Assembly: GCA_027295475.1 (NCBI GenBank)
Contig: JAPUKV010000125.1
Location: forward strand, 1 to 8,530
From: Pseudomonadota bacterium
GTDB lineage: Bacteria > Pseudomonadota > Gammaproteobacteria > Woeseiales > Woeseiaceae
Direction of reading: 5' to 3'
DNA: 8,530 nt
The notes under the pieces were generated by a model, which worked only from the letters and a program-made list of their open reading frames with translations, was not told the DNA's origin and ran no database searches. This document shows positions 281 to 8,530 of this stretch, in pieces (the stretch's first letter is position 1; every line of letters starts with the position of its first letter). The position numbers and the translations under genes were made by a program.

Positions 281-1099
281 ATGTTCACCTATATCGATCC
301 TAACGTCCGCGCCAGGCTGATGGAGCAGGGCAAGCTCATCCGGATTGACGCCGACGGCCAGTTGACCGACGCGAATCAGGCGCCGGTTCCAGGCGCCGGG
401 GCGATCAGCATCCTCGGCCCGATTCCGCTGCCTCTCGAGCGGCACGGTAAACATTACGAGGTGCAGTGGTATGCAAGCGTGCGGCACACTGAGTTGAGTA
501 AGGCACAGGAACTCGCCGATGAACTGCGCGAACACGGTGGTCAACGGTCATTTGCCCTCGTTGCCTCGTCAATGGCTGTGAATAGCGTTTTGATCATGGG
601 TGATCCCGCGAACTGGGAGAATCCGCTTATTCGTATTCACTCCAGCTGCCTGACAGGCGATGTATTCGGTTCGATGCGCTGCGACTGCGGGCCGCAGTTC
701 ATCTCGGCGCTGGAGCGCATCGCCGCTGATTCCGCAGGAGGCATGATCATTTACATGTCGGGGCACGAAGGCAGGGGAATAGGGTTGTGGGCAAAGGCGG
801 CGACTTATCTGCTGCAGGACTCGGGTGAGGATACTTACCAGGCGAATCGAACCCTCGGGCTGCCGGATGATTCACGAGATTTCGTTGATGCCGCCTCGTT
901 GTTGAAGTACTTCCACGGAGACCGGCCATTTCGGCTACTGACAAACAATCCCAAGAAAGTAGATGACCTCAACGAGCACGGGCTGGGGAATATCACGCCG
1001 GTCAAGCATGTTATCGGGGTGGGCGATGCGAACCGCGACTATTTGGCGGCCAAACGGGATTGGGGCCACAAACTCGATCCGGAAGATATCGCCTCTTAA
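281..1099 (+). CDS. ribA: GTP cyclohydrolase II family protein (RibA-like) with N-terminal extension
   Basis: 272 residues. GTP cyclohydrolase II opens GTP to 2,5-diamino-6-ribosylamino-4-pyrimidinone phosphate, formate and pyrophosphate, the first step to riboflavin. The catalytic core runs from about residue 90 to 265. RIHSSCLTGD and SMRCDCGPQ supply the three zinc cysteines (C123, C134, C136). Y176, D197 and R199 align with E. coli Y105, D126 and R128, and RLLTNNPKKV (218-227) and the C-terminal W-G-H-K-L are typical. Two oddities stand out: roughly 70 extra residues at the N-terminus compared with the 196-residue E. coli enzyme, and YMSGHEGRGIGL where E. coli has YHRQEGRNIGL, one residue longer and without the Q. 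There is no DHBP synthase domain. The ATG at 281 is preceded by a weak AGGTGG (263-268); an in-frame TAG at 269 excludes earlier starts. No FMN riboswitch is visible. It could be the housekeeping RibA or a specialised paralogue. Confidence 0.82.
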   Translation: MFTYIDPNVRARLMEQGKLIRIDADGQLTDANQAPVPGAGAISILGPIPLPLERHGKHYEVQWYASVRHTELSKAQELADELREHGGQRSFALVASSMAVNSVLIMGDPANWENPLIRIHSSCLTGDVFGSMRCDCGPQFISALERIAADSAGGMIIYMSGHEGRGIGLWAKAATYLLQDSGEDTYQANRTLGLPDDSRDFVDAASLLKYFHGDRPFRLLTNNPKKVDDLNEHGLGNITPVKHVIGVGDANRDYLAAKRDWGHKLDPEDIAS

Positions 1100-2062: not shown

Positions 2063-3259
2063 TTGTGCCCGGACGATATCTTGCTTGAAGTGCTTACAAA
2101 TGCCCGCGTTTTTGCGCCGGAGGACCTTGGCATATGCCAGTTGCTTGTGGGTGGCGGGCAAATCCTTGCCGTCAGTCAGGGCAAGGAGACGATTGCCGCC
2201 CCGAAAGCGCGTGTCACCGATCTGGGCGGGCGGCGGCTGATTCCCGGGTTTATCGACGGCCACGCCCACGTCACCGGCGGCGGTGGCGAATCGGGCTTCA
2301 GTAGCCGTGTGCCGCCAGTGCCGTTGAGCGGCTTTACGAGCGCAGGGGTGACCAGCGTTGTGGGCGTACTGGGGACAGATGACACTACCAGGGATACCCG
2401 GGCGTTGCTGGCGCAGACGAGGGCGCTCAGGGAAGAAGGCCTCGGTGCCTGGTGCCATACCGGTGGCTATCATGTGCCGCCGGTTACGCTGACCGGCAGC
2501 GTGCGGGACGACATTGTGTATCTGGACCCGGTGATCGGCATCGGCGAACTGGCGTTGAGCGACCATCGTTCGTCTCAGCCCACGCGTGATGAACTGTTGC
2601 GGATCGCGAGTGACGCCCATGTCGCAGGAATGATCTCGGGTAAAGCGGGGATCGTGCACCTGCACCTCGGTGATGGTGAGCGTGGCCTGGACCTGGTTCG
2701 CCAGGCCCTTGCCTTGAGCGAGTTGCCGGCACGCGTCTTTAATCCCACACACATCAACCGGCGCAAGGCGCTGTTCGAAGAGGCACTCGATCTCGCCCGT
2801 AATGGCAGCACGGTTGATATTACGGCGTTCCCCGTTGCAGAAGGCGAAGACGCCTGGCCGGCGGAAGACGCCTTACTGAAGTATCTGCAGTCCGGCGCGC
2901 CGGCCGACAAAATCACGATCAGCTCCGATGGCGGCGGTTGCCTGCCGGTATTCAATGAGCAGGGCGAAGTCCAGGAGATGGTCATCGGCCGGGCGGCAAG
3001 TCTGCCGCTAACGCTTAAGAATCTGCTGGCGGGAGGTGCACCGCTTGAGCAGGTATTGCCTGCGTTCACTTCGAACGTTGCAAATATTCTGCGCCTGCAC
3101 GACAGAGGCCGAATCACGACGGGGTATGCTGCCGATGTCATCGTGCTCGATGAGGATCACGATATTCACGATGTCATGATCGCTGGAATCTGGCACGTGA
3201 AGGATCGCCGTCAGCAAGTCTTTGGTCAGTTCGAGGAGCAGAACGGAGAGCAACGATAA
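2063..3259 (+). CDS. iadA: Isoaspartyl (beta-aspartyl) dipeptidase IadA, last step of cyanophycin breakdown
   Basis: 398 residues, against 390 in E. coli IadA (amidohydrolase superfamily, MEROPS M38). It should split beta-Asp-Arg released by cyanophycinase into aspartate and arginine in the cytoplasm. Visible residues: PGFIDGHAH (61-69) with metal ligands H67 and H69, E76 in GGGGES, Y136 in GGYHVP, R169 in SDHRS, H201 in HLHLGDG, H230 and R233 in PTHINR, D289 in SSDGGG. All line up with E. coli numbering to within four residues. The position of the carboxylated lysine (E. coli K162) is E162 here, in IGIGELALSDHRS, and E. coli S289 is replaced by C293. The start is TTG at 2063 with no clear Shine-Dalgarno; an in-frame TAG at 2042 rules out earlier starts. 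This start gives an N-terminus of E. coli-like length, but TTG 2081 (GGA 7 nt before) or GTG 2090 remain possible. Its stop overlaps the cphB start by one base. Confidence 0.92.
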   Translation: MCPDDILLEVLTNARVFAPEDLGICQLLVGGGQILAVSQGKETIAAPKARVTDLGGRRLIPGFIDGHAHVTGGGGESGFSSRVPPVPLSGFTSAGVTSVVGVLGTDDTTRDTRALLAQTRALREEGLGAWCHTGGYHVPPVTLTGSVRDDIVYLDPVIGIGELALSDHRSSQPTRDELLRIASDAHVAGMISGKAGIVHLHLGDGERGLDLVRQALALSELPARVFNPTHINRRKALFEEALDLARNGSTVDITAFPVAEGEDAWPAEDALLKYLQSGAPADKITISSDGGGCLPVFNEQGEVQEMVIGRAASLPLTLKNLLAGGAPLEQVLPAFTSNVANILRLHDRGRITTGYAADVIVLDEDHDIHDVMIAGIWHVKDRRQQVFGQFEEQNGEQR

Positions 3260-4089
3260 TGGGCCCGTCGAATCATGCAGACGGGGCTGAGCGCGGCTTC
3301 ATCATCCCGATCGGTGGTGCCGAGGAAAAATTGCACAACCCTGAAATCCTCGATCGCTTTGTCGAAATTTGCGGTGGCAGGTCGGCCCGCATTGCGATTA
3401 TACCGACTGCGTCCGAGCTCGAAGATACGGGCCGGAATTACGAGAAACTGTTTCGCAAACTCGGCATCGAACATGCGCGTGTCCTGCAGATGCTGACACG
3501 TGAAGACTGCCACTCGCAGAAATTTCTCGATTACATCGAGGGCGCCCAGGGCGTTTTTATGACGGGCGGAAACCAACTGCGGCTTTCGACAACGCTGGGT
3601 GGAACACCCGTTGCGCAGATGATTCGGCGCCGGAATGCCGCTGGGCTGCACGTCGCAGGGACGTCGGCGGGTGCGGCATTCATGCCCGAACACATGATCG
3701 CAGGGGGCGGCGAAGGCAGCACGCCTAGCCCGGACATGGTAACGATGGCACCCGGCCTTGGCCTGACCAACAGCTTCATCATCGACCAGCATTTTCGCGA
3801 GAGAGACAGGCTCGGTCGCCTGCTGACCGCGCTGGCCTATAACCCGTTTGCGGTCGGCATCGGTCTGGATGAGGACACGGCAGCCTTCATCAAGCCCGGA
3901 GACAGTCTTGAAGTCGTCGGCAGCGGTGGCATCACGATCATCGATCCGACGAACCTCAGCTATTCTTCGATGGACCGGGCGCAGCGGGGCGAGCCCGTTA
4001 GCCTGATTGACGTGAAGCTGCATATACTGATAGCCGGCGGGCGCTTCGAGATTGCTTCCCGCGAAGCGTTCGCAGAGCCAAAAGAATAA
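3259..4089 (+). CDS. cphB: Cyanophycinase CphB (peptidase family S51)
   Basis: 276 residues, usual length for intracellular cyanophycinase; no signal peptide. It is a serine exopeptidase that trims cyanophycin to beta-Asp-Arg dipeptides. The nucleophile is S136 in the elbow GTSAGA (134-139). FIIPIGGAEEK (14-24), FMTGGNQLRLS (100-110), DQHFRERDRLGRL (176-188, with H178) and GIGLDEDTA (200-208, with E205) are the S51 signatures; H178 and E205 are the likely triad partners. The ATG at 3259 overlaps the iadA stop as TAATG, with GGAGAG (3245-3250) eight bases upstream, so translation is probably coupled to iadA. cphA follows after 16 nt. Placed between a beta-Asp dipeptidase and a cyanophycin synthetase, the substrate is hardly in doubt. 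Confidence 0.96.
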   Translation: MGPSNHADGAERGFIIPIGGAEEKLHNPEILDRFVEICGGRSARIAIIPTASELEDTGRNYEKLFRKLGIEHARVLQMLTREDCHSQKFLDYIEGAQGVFMTGGNQLRLSTTLGGTPVAQMIRRRNAAGLHVAGTSAGAAFMPEHMIAGGGEGSTPSPDMVTMAPGLGLTNSFIIDQHFRERDRLGRLLTALAYNPFAVGIGLDEDTAAFIKPGDSLEVVGSGGITIIDPTNLSYSSMDRAQRGEPVSLIDVKLHILIAGGRFEIASREAFAEPKE

Positions 4090-4105: not shown

Positions 4106-6892
4106 ATGAATATCGTCAGCACCAACGTCTATGTTGGACCTAATATTTATGCACACTTCCCGGTAATCCGGCACGTTCTCGATCTGGGCGATCTCGAGGA
4201 CTGGCCGACGGGCCGACTGGGCAAGGACTTCGTTGACCCGCTGCTCGACTATCTACCGGGACTGCAGGAACACGGCTGCTCCTACAACGAGCCCGGCGGG
4301 TTCGTCCGCCGGCTGAAGGAGGACGAGGGCACATGGCTCGGGCATGTCATGGAACACGTCGCGATCGAACTGCAGAATATTGCTGGTTACCCCGTGACCT
4401 TCGGCCGGACACGCTCGATCGATGGCAAATCCGGCCACTACAACATGGTCTTCCAGTACCACGACGACGCAGTTGGTCGTGAAGCAAGCCAGTTGTCTCT
4501 GGCGTTGATCCACAGCCTCCTGCCGGCAGAAGTGAAACCAGACGATGCACCCGGCGACGATTGGGAATTCGGCGAAGAGCGGGACAGATTCATTCGCTAT
4601 GCGCAGCGTCGTGCATTTGGCCCGAGTACCGCATCGCTGGTACGTGCGGCAGAAGAGCGCGGCATACCGTGGATTCGCCTGAACCGTCAAAGCCTGGTGC
4701 AGTTCGGTCACGGCAAGTACCAACACCGCATCCAGGCGACAACGACCGGCAACACCAGCAATATCGCAGTCGAACTGGCGTCGGACAAAGAAGAAACCAA
4801 CAGTATTCTCCGCGACCTTGGATTACCGGTGCCGAAGCAGCGACTGGTGCGAAGTTCGAGTGACGCAAAACGCGCGGCGGCGCGAATCGGCTTTCCCGTC
4901 GTCCTGAAACCACTCTCCGGCAATCATGGGCGCGGCGTTTCCATCAATCTGAAAACGAACGATGAAGTTGAAGCCGCGTTTGCCAAGGCAAGAGAGCATG
5001 GCCGCAACATCATCGTGGAGAGTTTTCTCGAGGGCCACGATCACAGGCTTCTCGTCGTCAATGGCGAACTCGTTGCCGCAGCGAAGCGCGTGCCAGGTCA
5101 TGTCGTCGGTGATGGCAGGCAAACGATCGAGCAGCTTGTGGAAGTCGTTAACGAAGACCCGCGTCGCGGTGTCGGTCATGAGAAAGTGCTGACACGGCTG
5201 GAATTGGATCATCAGGCCGAGCGCCTGCTGGCAAAGCTGGGCTACGACCGCAACACGGTTCCAAAGGACGGGGAGACTGTTTACCTGCGATCGACCGCGA
5301 ACCTTTCAACCGGTGGTACGGCGATCGACGTAACGGACACTATTCATCCTGACAATCGCGACATGGCGATTCGCACGATCAAGGCAATCGGCCTGGATAT
5401 CGGCGGCGTCGATTTCCTGACCAAAGACATCACCGAGTCATACCGTGAAACAGGCGGCGGAATCTGCGAAGTCAACGCGGGGCCCGGTTTCCGCATGCAT
5501 GTTGCGCCGAGTGAAGGCACGTCGCGAGATGTGGCCGGCCCTGTGCTGGATATGCTTTTTCCACCCGATTCCCCCAGCCGTGTCCCGATTGCAGCAGTGA
5601 CCGGCACGAACGGCAAGACGACAACCTCACGCATGCTTGCGCACATCCTGAAGATGTGTGGCTTCACGGTTGGCCTGACTTCGACAGACGGTGTCTATAT
5701 CGACGGGCAGCTCAGCGTCCCGGGCGACATGACGGGCCCGGTATCGGCAAAGATGATTCTGCGGGATCCGTCTATCGATGCAGCCGTCATGGAAACGGCT
5801 CGCGGCGGCATGTTGCGCGGCGGGCTGGGATTCCAGGAGTGTAATGTTGCTGCCTGCCTCAATGTTGCTGCCGATCATCTGGGCATGAAGGGCATAGACA
5901 CGCTCGAGCAGCTGGCTGAAATCAAGCGAGTCCCTGTTGAAGTCGCCAGGGACGCGGCCATCCTCAATGCCGATGACGCGCATTGCCTGCAAATGGCGGA
6001 CTACACAGACGCGGCAACGCTCTGCTATGTGACGATGAATCCCGGGCATCCGCTGGTCAAGCAACATATTCGTGCCGGTGGGCAGGCCTTCGTGCTCGAA
6101 GAGGGCATGAACGGCCACATGATCACTATTTATGACAATGAGAGTCATATCCCGCTGCTCTGGACTCACCTGATTCCCGCGACGATCGAAGGCCGGGCAA
6201 TTCACAATGTACAAAATGCGATGTTTGCCGCTGCACTCGCCTACAACATGGATATCGGGCTCGAGGATATCCGCCACGGGCTGCGAACCTTTGACGCGAC
6301 GTTTTTCCAAACGCCGGGACGTATGAATATCTATGACGAACACCCGTTCAAGGTCATTCTCGATTACGCGCACAATCCCGCGGCTGTTCGGGCAATGTGC
6401 CATCTGGTTGACCGTTTCGAGCCTGAAGGAAGACGCATTGTGGTGCTGTCCGCCCCCGGTGACCGGCGAGATGAAGACATCAGAGAGATAGCAGAAATCG
6501 CTGCCGGGCATTTTGATCATTTCATTTGCCGCTGCGACGACAACCGCCGCGGACGTGGTGACGAGGAAGTCGCCGTCATGCTCAAGAACAAACTGCTTGA
6601 GGAAGGCGTTTCCGTGGACCAGATCGAAGTCATCCCCGACGAGCAGGAGGCGACGACCCGAGCGCTGGAGACGGCGGAGCCGGGCGACCTGGTCCTGGTG
6701 CTTACCGATGCTGTCAAACGCACCTGGAAGCAAATCATCTATTTCAATTCTGGCGCCAGGGTCGAGGATGCGCCCAAGAGATCGTCGGTGAGTATCGAAC
6801 TGCCGGAAAGCGAGGATTTCAATTTTAACGATGACCTAGAGCTCATCAGCGATGAACGCGGCGTTCGTATTGCCAGGGAAGCCGGCGATTAG
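4106..6892 (+). CDS. cphA: Cyanophycin synthetase CphA (CphA1 type, two-ligase)
   Basis: 928 residues from ATG 4106, preceded by GGAG (4094-4097) at 8 nt. Upstream codons back to ATG 4052 lie inside cphB and lack family similarity, so they are excluded. CphA polymerises aspartate and arginine with ATP, without a ribosome, into multi-L-arginyl-poly-L-aspartate granules. Domains: N-domain about 1-160, starting MNIVSTNVYVGPNIYAHFPV and carrying GHVMEHVAIELQ (79-90) with H80-x-x-E83-H84; ATP-grasp G-domain about 161-485, with KPLSGNHGRGV (268-278) and EVNAGPGF (455-462), which adds Asp to the backbone; Mur-ligase-like M-domain about 490-890, with P-loop GTNGKTTT (500-507), ETARGG (563-568), NVAADHLG (586-593), TPGRMN (736-741) and DYAHNP (753-758), which adds Arg to the side chain. 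A 40-residue acidic tail closes the protein. Both ligase sites look intact, so this is CphA1 rather than CphA2. Confidence 0.97.
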   Translation: MNIVSTNVYVGPNIYAHFPVIRHVLDLGDLEDWPTGRLGKDFVDPLLDYLPGLQEHGCSYNEPGGFVRRLKEDEGTWLGHVMEHVAIELQNIAGYPVTFGRTRSIDGKSGHYNMVFQYHDDAVGREASQLSLALIHSLLPAEVKPDDAPGDDWEFGEERDRFIRYAQRRAFGPSTASLVRAAEERGIPWIRLNRQSLVQFGHGKYQHRIQATTTGNTSNIAVELASDKEETNSILRDLGLPVPKQRLVRSSSDAKRAAARIGFPVVLKPLSGNHGRGVSINLKTNDEVEAAFAKAREHGRNIIVESFLEGHDHRLLVVNGELVAAAKRVPGHVVGDGRQTIEQLVEVVNEDPRRGVGHEKVLTRLELDHQAERLLAKLGYDRNTVPKDGETVYLRSTANLSTGGTAIDVTDTIHPDNRDMAIRTIKAIGLDIGGVDFLTKDITESYRETGGGICEVNAGPGFRMHVAPSEGTSRDVAGPVLDMLFPPDSPSRVPIAAVTGTNGKTTTSRMLAHILKMCGFTVGLTSTDGVYIDGQLSVPGDMTGPVSAKMILRDPSIDAAVMETARGGMLRGGLGFQECNVAACLNVAADHLGMKGIDTLEQLAEIKRVPVEVARDAAILNADDAHCLQMADYTDAATLCYVTMNPGHPLVKQHIRAGGQAFVLEEGMNGHMITIYDNESHIPLLWTHLIPATIEGRAIHNVQNAMFAAALAYNMDIGLEDIRHGLRTFDATFFQTPGRMNIYDEHPFKVILDYAHNPAAVRAMCHLVDRFEPEGRRIVVLSAPGDRRDEDIREIAEIAAGHFDHFICRCDDNRRGRGDEEVAVMLKNKLLEEGVSVDQIEVIPDEQEATTRALETAEPGDLVLVLTDAVKRTWKQIIYFNSGARVEDAPKRSSVSIELPESEDFNFNDDLELISDERGVRIAREAGD

Positions 6893-6918: not shown

Positions 6919-8530
6919 ATGGAATACATTGACGCGCGCAGACTGACCGGGCCGAGCCTGTTGTGGAACAAGCCGGGCACGATCCTCGATGTTCGCTGCA
7001 GCGAAGCGGAGGCCGGACAGCTCATCCCGTTCTGGGAGACCAGTATCCGACGTATGCTCGAAGCCGTCGGTTGGGCAGACGAATCTACCTGCAGCTGGCG
7101 CCTGTCCGGAGGCGTAAGCCTGGCTTTCTCGGCCCCTATCGACGCGCTGTATGCAGCCTCCGCCATCAACGAATGGGCATGGGCGTGTTGCGACAGCGAG
7201 TTCAACGCCGCGGACGCCGCCGATTTCGATGCAACCGTCGAGCGCATACGCGCAGAGATTAGCGAAGAGGCAAATCCTGGCCTGCTGAAGCTTGCAGCAG
7301 CGGCCGAGGAGCGCGGCAAGACCTTTCTCTGGGATGATGACGAGGCATCGATCGGTCTTGGGACGGGCTCACTGACCTGGCCTGTACGCGAATTACCGGA
7401 ACCCGGCGAAATCGACTGGGACGCTATACATGACATACCCGCCGGAATAATTACCGGCACCAACGGCAAAACGACGACCGTACGCCTTGCCGCGCATATC
7501 GCCCGCGTGTCCGGGAAAAACGTCGGGCTGAGTTCTACTGACTGGATCGCCGTGAATGATCGGATCATCGATCGGGACGACTGGTCAGGACCGGGTGGTG
7601 CCAGAAATATTTTACGGCAACAGGAAGTGGATCTGGCCATTCTTGAAACGGCGAGAGGCGGCCTGTTGCGCCGTGGCCTGGGTGTCACGCGAGCCGACGT
7701 CGCCCTTATTACCAATATCGCCGAGGATCATCTCGGCGATTTTGGTTCGCAAAACCTGAATGAATTGCTGAACGTCAAATGGATCGTCAGCCATGCTGTC
7801 GAAACTTCCGGTTCGCTCATCCTGAACGCGGACGACGACTTGCTCGTCGGGAAGTCGGCGGAATTTTCTGGAAAAATCGTTTGGTTCACAATGGACAAGG
7901 ACAATCCCACGGTTGAAAAACATGTGGCTAACGGTGGTCTGGCCTTCGTGCTGGACGACGATAGCTTGTCACGCGTTGATGGTGAATCGAGCGAAGTCAT
8001 CTGCAAGAGCGAGGAAATACCGATCACGCTCGGCGGAGCTGCGAGTCACAACACCGCCAATGCGCTGGCCGCGGCTGCATTAACACACTGTCTTGGTATT
8101 CCTGTAGCGGATATCCGCGAGGGACTGACCTCGATGTCCCAGGACGACAATCCCGGTCGCTCCAACGTTTATTCGATTTCGGATTTCAAAGTGCTGGTAG
8201 ACTTCGCACACAATCCTCACGCGATGCAGGCACTATTCGATATGGCGCGCGCACTGCCGGCGAAGCGCAGGCTGCTTGCTTTCGCTCAGGCGGGGGACCG
8301 AACGGAAGCATCCATTCGCGAACTGGCGAGAAGCGCCTGGTCGATAGGTCTCGATGAAGTGATCGTGTCGGAACTCGAAGCTTACGCGCGCGGTCGGCCC
8401 CCGGGCGAGGTCTACGGTCTCATCAGGGAAGAGCTGATCAAATGCGGTGCACGGGAAGATCAAATAAAGCATCACATGGAAGAGACCGAGTCGCTCGATG
8501 CTGCCCTCGATTGGGCGCAACCGGGTGATC
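6919..8530 (+). CDS. CphA-related Mur ligase lacking the ATP-grasp core (open at right edge)
   Basis: 537 codons are visible with no stop before the window ends. It starts 26 nt after cphA without a clear Shine-Dalgarno; ATG 6919 is chosen because MEYIDARRLTGPSLLWNKPG lines up with the CphA N-terminus (G11-P12 in both). Residues 1-115 resemble a worn CphA N-domain without the HxxEH motif. Residues 128-148, AAEERG ending in LGTG, match CphA 181-203, AAEERG ending in FGHG. About 30 residues later comes P-loop GTNGKTTT (180-187), then ETARGG (243-248), NIAEDHLG (266-273), NPGR (411-414), DFAHNP (428-433) and AGDRTEASIRELA (458-470). CphA has about 267 more residues between AAEERG and the P-loop, that is, its ATP-grasp core. 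The Mur site looks intact, so ATP-dependent amide ligation is expected; the substrate (perhaps arginine onto an aspartyl chain) is unknown. It could be a CphA partner or a separate ligase. Confidence 0.87.
   Translation, partial: MEYIDARRLTGPSLLWNKPGTILDVRCSEAEAGQLIPFWETSIRRMLEAVGWADESTCSWRLSGGVSLAFSAPIDALYAASAINEWAWACCDSEFNAADAADFDATVERIRAEISEEANPGLLKLAAAAEERGKTFLWDDDEASIGLGTGSLTWPVRELPEPGEIDWDAIHDIPAGIITGTNGKTTTVRLAAHIARVSGKNVGLSSTDWIAVNDRIIDRDDWSGPGGARNILRQQEVDLAILETARGGLLRRGLGVTRADVALITNIAEDHLGDFGSQNLNELLNVKWIVSHAVETSGSLILNADDDLLVGKSAEFSGKIVWFTMDKDNPTVEKHVANGGLAFVLDDDSLSRVDGESSEVICKSEEIPITLGGAASHNTANALAAAALTHCLGIPVADIREGLTSMSQDDNPGRSNVYSISDFKVLVDFAHNPHAMQALFDMARALPAKRRLLAFAQAGDRTEASIRELARSAWSIGLDEVIVSELEAYARGRPPGEVYGLIREELIKCGAREDQIKHHMEETESLDAALDWAQPGD

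Follow-up and report, generated by a model that had tools for sequence, protein, structure and literature searches.

Cyanophycin synthetase is a bacterial nitrogen-storage polymerase. In the DNA analysed here, a stretch of 8,530 nucleotides from a Woeseiaceae bacterium (contig JAPUKV010000125.1; hereafter the window), a complete synthetase gene, cphA1, is followed directly on its 3' side by a gene for a second CphA-like protein, which has N and M domains and lacks most of the ATP-grasp (G) domain. Why is an intact synthetase accompanied by such an N-M protein, which we call the partner? According to sections of a survey of cyanophycin gene clusters (PMC10206079), cyanophycin is the product of a single enzyme, CphA1, or of repolymerisation by CphA2. 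We tentatively read the partner, with a little less than even confidence, as belonging to an old family, derived from CphA, of catalytically competent, ATP-dependent amide ligases that would work with cyanophycin. Judging from its active-site residues, its nucleophile is probably not arginine.

Domain architecture of the partner

The M domain of the partner is of the CphA type. Residues 171-537 score 370.6 bits against TIGR02068, compared with 95.1 bits for the best MurE model; for this protein, truncated by the window, that is less than half of the whole-protein cut-off of 850, which is not reached. BLASTP aligns the M domain with that of the neighbouring CphA at 37% over 380 columns (E=3e-60), and a profile-profile comparison matches the two over 363 columns (probability 100). 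In long alignments, the identity of the partner M domain is 22-24% to MurE and 32-41% to full-length CphA1. MurE has the M core and lid fold and the P-loop in common with the partner, but no CphA N domain.

The first ~155 residues of the partner are a CphA N domain and the first elements of the G core, and the remaining G domain is absent. The N domain of the fold model has a predicted local distance difference test score (pLDDT) of 93.9, the ten best PDB fold matches of this region are CphA1 or CphA2, and 549 of the 559 model residues match residues 1-872 of CphA1 7lgq_A. BLASTP of the N-terminus against CphA returns a weak piece (E=0.41). In a Pfam search at E<=0.01, the region has no match (PF18921 was not reported) and the partner has no ATP-grasp family. 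The N-domain profile test was run twice: with 34 CphAs, partner residues 110-150 match CphA 163-203 (P=0.011), and with the profile widened to 120 rows, residues 1-152 match CphA 1-207 end to end (P=7.6e-7; reversed control 0.19). The original prediction, made from the sequence of the window, had proposed CphA ancestry at both ends; the M-domain BLASTP and the end-to-end profile match bear this out, and fold and profile matches alike identify the first 155 residues as CphA rather than as an unrelated domain. A MurE, MurC or FolC ligase fused to an unrelated domain was ruled out by the model scores, the PDB fold matches and the tree described below.

The landmarks used in that prediction are as it described them: G11-P12 is in register in the partner and the neighbouring CphA, AAEERG lies at residue 128 of the former and 181 of the latter, and 46 versus 313 residues separate it from the P-loop. 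Since only one partner in 35 and six CphAs in 34 contain the exact hexamer, we regard its position as homologous and its letter-for-letter identity in the window partner as partly luck.

With CphA1 (TIGR02068; 7lg5, 7lgq, 7wae), the partner shares the N fold, the start of the G core and a complete catalytic M domain, but it has neither the ATP-grasp active site of the Asp-adding G domain nor the HxxEH primer site, and its lid and S542-loop positions are changed. H..EH is found in none of 37 partners within their first 200 residues and in all 36 CphAs examined; sections of PMC9262961 place the Cx19HxxEH primer site in 83% of CphA1, so it is not universal. CphA2 (7ta5, 8fxh) is likewise CphA-derived and reduced to one active site, but keeps G and loses the M P-loop and lid, as described in sections of PMC9427784. 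The partner is the reverse, its ATP-grasp core removed and its Mur-ligase site kept, as had been predicted.

Origin, age and distribution of the partner family

A tree built from 67 M domains joins the 18 partners in a single clade (100/100) that lies with CphA, and CphA and partners together split from MurE at 100/100. Fifteen cognate CphA1s and an Acinetobacter CphA1 form a separate clade (100/99). A 69-row tree with 20 partners and 17 cognates, built without MurE_G053, C1_G234 and two CphA-prime rows, contains the same two clades. In the best trees, partners and cognate CphA1s do not form sister clades. Approximately unbiased (AU) tests reject neither a tree with partners and cognate CphA1s forced together (p=0.113) nor one with partners placed with MurE, which makes them the earliest branch on the CphA side (p=0.531); the latter constraint improves on the unconstrained tree by 0.63 log units. 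Given the clade placement and the AU results, the partner family is supported as old, and a local tandem duplication of cphA is not established. The predicted route, in-frame deletion after tandem duplication, is thus retained for the deletion, which is plausible, but not for the duplication. An M domain standing away from CphA, named beforehand as refuting the prediction, is not indicated by similarity or by the best trees, although the AU result leaves room for a first-branch placement.

The deletion is plausible because in-frame loss of the G core is a repeated event: by tree placement, the N-M layout also had separate origins outside the partner family. A Legionella adelaidensis plasmid encodes a 622-residue N-M protein (P0121; L096:5680-7548) beside a cyanophycinase and an isoaspartyl peptidase. 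Like the partner it consists of N, a G stub and M next to a cyanophycinase; unlike the partners it keeps HxxEH and GDRREED. It groups with full CphA1 of its own order, and a joint clade with the partners is rejected (p=9e-6). In this order, 48 of 112 genomes have a match and one has an uninterrupted N-M match; that genome is the same species by 100% identity and also has a full-length CphA-type gene (L133), in which no HxxEH occurs in the 260 residues examined. A third N-M protein, in G838, is sister to the cognate CphA1 clade (100/96; long branch). It lies on contig C8 in a second CphA-type locus (L134:3936-8208), where this 648-residue protein and an N-G-M protein are encoded in tandem. The N-G-M protein has a destroyed M P-loop, carries DQ in place of DH and has also lost the NHGRG of its G domain, so it may be decaying or repurposed; an open reading frame (ORF) near the tandem is presumably ureohydrolase-like.

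The partners have evolved under constraint alongside CphA1. Divergence is correlated across 14 partner/CphA1 pairs (Mantel r=0.874; 0 of 20000 permutations as high), and mean identity is 42% for partners versus 64% for CphA1, indicating faster divergence of the partners. The closest locus sampled, L001, encodes a partner of 559 residues that is 92% identical to that of the window; between the two loci, the ratio of nonsynonymous to synonymous substitution rates (dN/dS) reaches 0.284 in the N part of the partner, against 0.133 in the partner overall and 0.086 in cphA. A degenerate pseudogene was ruled out by the dN/dS of 0.133, the kept catalytic residues and 25 complete ORFs, as was, on the same grounds, an artefact of a fragmented assembly.

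Distribution was sampled in Pseudomonadota genomes (class, phylum and order samples), 29 GTDB loci and plasmid records. The partner recurs in marine and other proteobacteria of the Gamma- and Alphaproteobacteria, and a 28-row family alignment (A1) includes the window partner. The two-gene pair is recurrent, as anticipated: the partner directly follows cphA in 27 of the 29 GTDB loci, several of them labelled Woeseiaceae, and the other two (L017 and L029) start inside the partner. Among the same loci, 25 partner ORFs are complete (555-570 residues), cphB is present in 24 and iadA in 9. In the class of G002, CphA1 exceeds the cut-off in 13 of 274 genomes; six of these have an adjacent M-only second match, four an adjacent N-G paralogue instead, and for three no second adjacent match is listed. 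A CphA-type M domain occurs in 29 of 398 genomes of the phylum of G002 and a CphA-type match in 7 of 337 of the class of G350, with a partner in five and three, respectively, each adjoining cphA. In the order of G002, 38 of 117 genomes have a match and 36 a partner match, the exceptions being a contig-end fragment (G1132) and a genome with CphA only (G1102); within the 36, the G1088 locus is split across two contigs and that of G1126 is on a contig without a CphA match. No partner was seen away from CphA1 in the genome samples where the contig reaches.

Plasmid-borne partners were found in two Ruegeria, in Shinella zoogloeoides and in a record labelled Roseateles XES5 (flagged unverified), and in the three of these four records that were examined, cphB-cphA lies directly before the partner. 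All are annotated 'Mur ligase family protein', and the examined records give no other name, in line with the prediction of an unnamed lineage. A search of open-licence papers, which does not establish absence from the published record, yielded no N-M paralogue; none is described in the sections covered of PMC9427784, PMC10206079, PMC9262961 and PMC11915815, and the word 'ligase' is absent from the main text of the gene-cluster survey PMC10206079.

Active-site positions and possible function

We compared M-domain residues over 18 partners and 39 CphA1 rows, 15 of them cognates, leaving out two CphA-prime rows and C1_G234. Nine of the 14 positions examined have an ATP- or Mg-binding or catalytic role and are conserved in CphA1; all nine are kept in 18/18 partners. 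The T500 equivalent is T in 15 partners and S in 3. Other positions differ. The S542 column is G in every partner (S in 34 and A in 5 of the CphA1 rows), and E607, an M-core contact, is E or Q in 32/39 CphA1 and R in 14/18 partners. F692, A755 and W672 are variable in both groups, and S603 too varies in CphA1. In the lid, R778 and D781 are each present in 39/39 CphA1, versus 1/18 and 6/18 partners, respectively, whereas R777 and R805 are invariant across both groups. Column 801 is D in 32/39 CphA1 and in no partner; column 803 is Y or H in all partners and in 4/39 CphA1. In MurE the incoming amino acid is bound by the motif DNPR; this motif aligns with columns 802-805, immediately before which partners carry one extra residue.

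If the partner is an amide ligase working with cyanophycin, it would phosphorylate the carboxylate of an Asp-containing acceptor, which might be cyanophycin, either the chain running between the N and M domains or a piece of it, and would join the activated carboxylate to an amine, probably other than arginine. The reaction would be expected to yield cyanophycin that is modified or capped, or else a beta-Asp dipeptide in modified form. A non-arginine amine is suggested because lid positions invariant in CphA1 are changed beside the stretch aligned with the MurE motif, while the M site of the cognate CphA1 is intact. It is possible, if rather doubtful, that the partners are a second dedicated side-chain ligase that adds a non-arginine amino acid or cap to the polymer of the cognate CphA1; many proteobacteria would then make cyanophycin of a composition so far undescribed. 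Were CphA1 accompanied by a conserved second ligase, knowledge of the polymer, of how it is capped or of how it is turned over would be incomplete for Gamma- and Alphaproteobacteria, and the partner would offer a naturally occurring M enzyme with one activity, useful for study and for producing altered polymers.

Several points weigh against an amide ligase of this kind. The change of nucleophile is read from an alignment; R777 and R805 are invariant, D781 is present in a third of the partners, and four CphA1 themselves have Y or H at 803. Since the S542 loop is changed and E607 is replaced by R in most partners, the acceptor need not be cyanophycin. Nor does any recurring neighbour beyond cphB and iadA point clearly to a substrate. 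Only two such neighbour groups recur across distantly related lineages without lying antisense to the core genes. One is a pair of ORFs shared by L087 and L093, annotated aldehyde dehydrogenase in the L093 copy; the other comprises ORFs in L008, L026, L088 and L094, annotated as ABC-transporter ATP-binding proteins in L094. In Ruegeria sp. THAF33 (L093:3043-5664), a saccharopine-dehydrogenase-like gene and the aldehyde dehydrogenase precede cphB-cphA-partner. These genes are a hint at lysine; only the aldehyde-dehydrogenase-like ORF recurs, in a single other lineage (L087).

Three other functions have to be weighed. The partner might act on a small molecule, for example in salvage or export of the beta-Asp-Arg dipeptide, and lie beside cphA for regulation. 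The changes in both the acceptor-side loop and the lid would suit this, as would neighbouring genes that make and split the dipeptide; we nevertheless consider it unlikely, because the partner keeps an N domain that binds polymer in CphA1 and stays with CphA1 wherever the sampled contigs reach. Similarly unlikely, perhaps slightly more so, is an arginylation helper that carries out the CphA1 M reaction, Arg onto the C-terminal Asp, in trans and so speeds or completes side-chain addition. The nine kept catalytic positions, the invariant R777 and R805 and the retention of both domains that flank the polymer in CphA1 are consistent with such a helper, but R778 and D781 are mostly lost from partners, the separately derived L. 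adelaidensis protein keeps both, and the 15 cognate CphA1s already have an intact M site. The lid changes thus weaken the arginine-ligase-like role that had been put forward.

The structural role offered as its counterpart, a non-catalytic or mainly structural subunit that would form a hetero-oligomer with CphA1 and alter assembly, chain length or granule formation, strikes us as improbable. Gene pairing and co-divergence with CphA1 fit it. Moreover, in the CphA1 tetramer the M core is in contact with three G cores as well as with the N domain of the same chain (sections of PMC9427784), so that the G cores of CphA1 could offer a docking surface to an N-M protein. However, a scaffold would not need the nine catalytic positions that every partner has conserved, which disfavours a structure-only role.

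Gene order and further reduced CphA paralogues

The partner ends a run of genes in one direction, iadA-cphB-cphA1-partner, separated by -1, 16 and 26 bases when the cphA start is taken at 4106. The G and M motifs of the window cphA1 belong to those invariant in 11/11 rows of CphA alignment A2.

Table 1. Features of the window and of the partner gene
Feature	Position	Strand	Evidence or remark
ribA	281-1099		
queF	1191-2000	minus	
iadA, isoaspartyl dipeptidase, first of the cyanophycin gene run	2063..3259	+	TIGR01975, 393.6 bits (cut-off 331.25)
cphB, cyanophycinase	3259..4089	+	TIGR02069, 258.4 bits (cut-off 126.6)
cphA1, complete synthetase gene with intact HxxEH (N domain), G and M motifs	4106..6892	+	TIGR02068, 1148.9 bits (cut-off 850)
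Partner gene, encoding 537 residues (of ~559) of the N-M protein before it runs off the window end	6919..8530	+	ORF 6919-8529
CphA-type N domain without HxxEH, residues 1-109 (approximate boundaries)	6919..7245	+	Fold model, PDB and profile matches
Stub left from the beginning of the ATP-grasp (G) core, residues 110-155	7246..7383	+	Aligned with about CphA 163-207
Short linker at the site of ~280 missing G-domain residues	7384..7428	+	
CphA-type Mur-ligase M domain (core and lid), residues 171-537	7429..8530	+	PF08245, PF02875; TIGR02068 positions 477-842
P-loop TGTNGKTTT, residues 179-187	7453..7479	+	K499 equivalent is K in 18/18 partners
Loop DWSGPGGAR; G227 replaces CphA1 S542	7579..7605	+	Alignment
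Mg-ligand glutamate E243 (TeCphA1 E558)	7645..7647	+	Kept in 18/18 partners
D270-H271 (SuCphA1 D585-H586)	7726..7731	+	Kept in 18/18 partners
GDRTE where CphA1 has GDRRD	8293..8307	+	Lid alignment
SELEAYARGR, aligned with the MurE DNPR region	8368..8397	+	Alignment with MurE rows

Other reduced CphA paralogues were seen in the samples. The N-G paralogues beside CphA1 in 4 of the 13 CphA1 genomes of the class sample (G111, G228, G095 and G217; L043-L046, L108-L110) have open frames of 715-777 residues, one with an internal stop, and represent the opposite single-site layout next to CphA1. In a single order, the paralogues of G718 and G742 (L135, L136) have ~600 residues, lack part of G and have no M P-loop or lid, and that of G731 (L137) is CphA2-like, with 729 residues, NHGRG kept and no M P-loop; for want of that P-loop, all three were ruled out as further N-M ligases. 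'Mur ligase family proteins' of Deinococcus deserti (L101:2975-5149; 724 residues) and D. taeanensis (L102:2942-5458; ~840 residues) combine a CphA-type M domain with an altered front part and form a clade with Deinococcus ficus and alphaproteobacterial CphA1.
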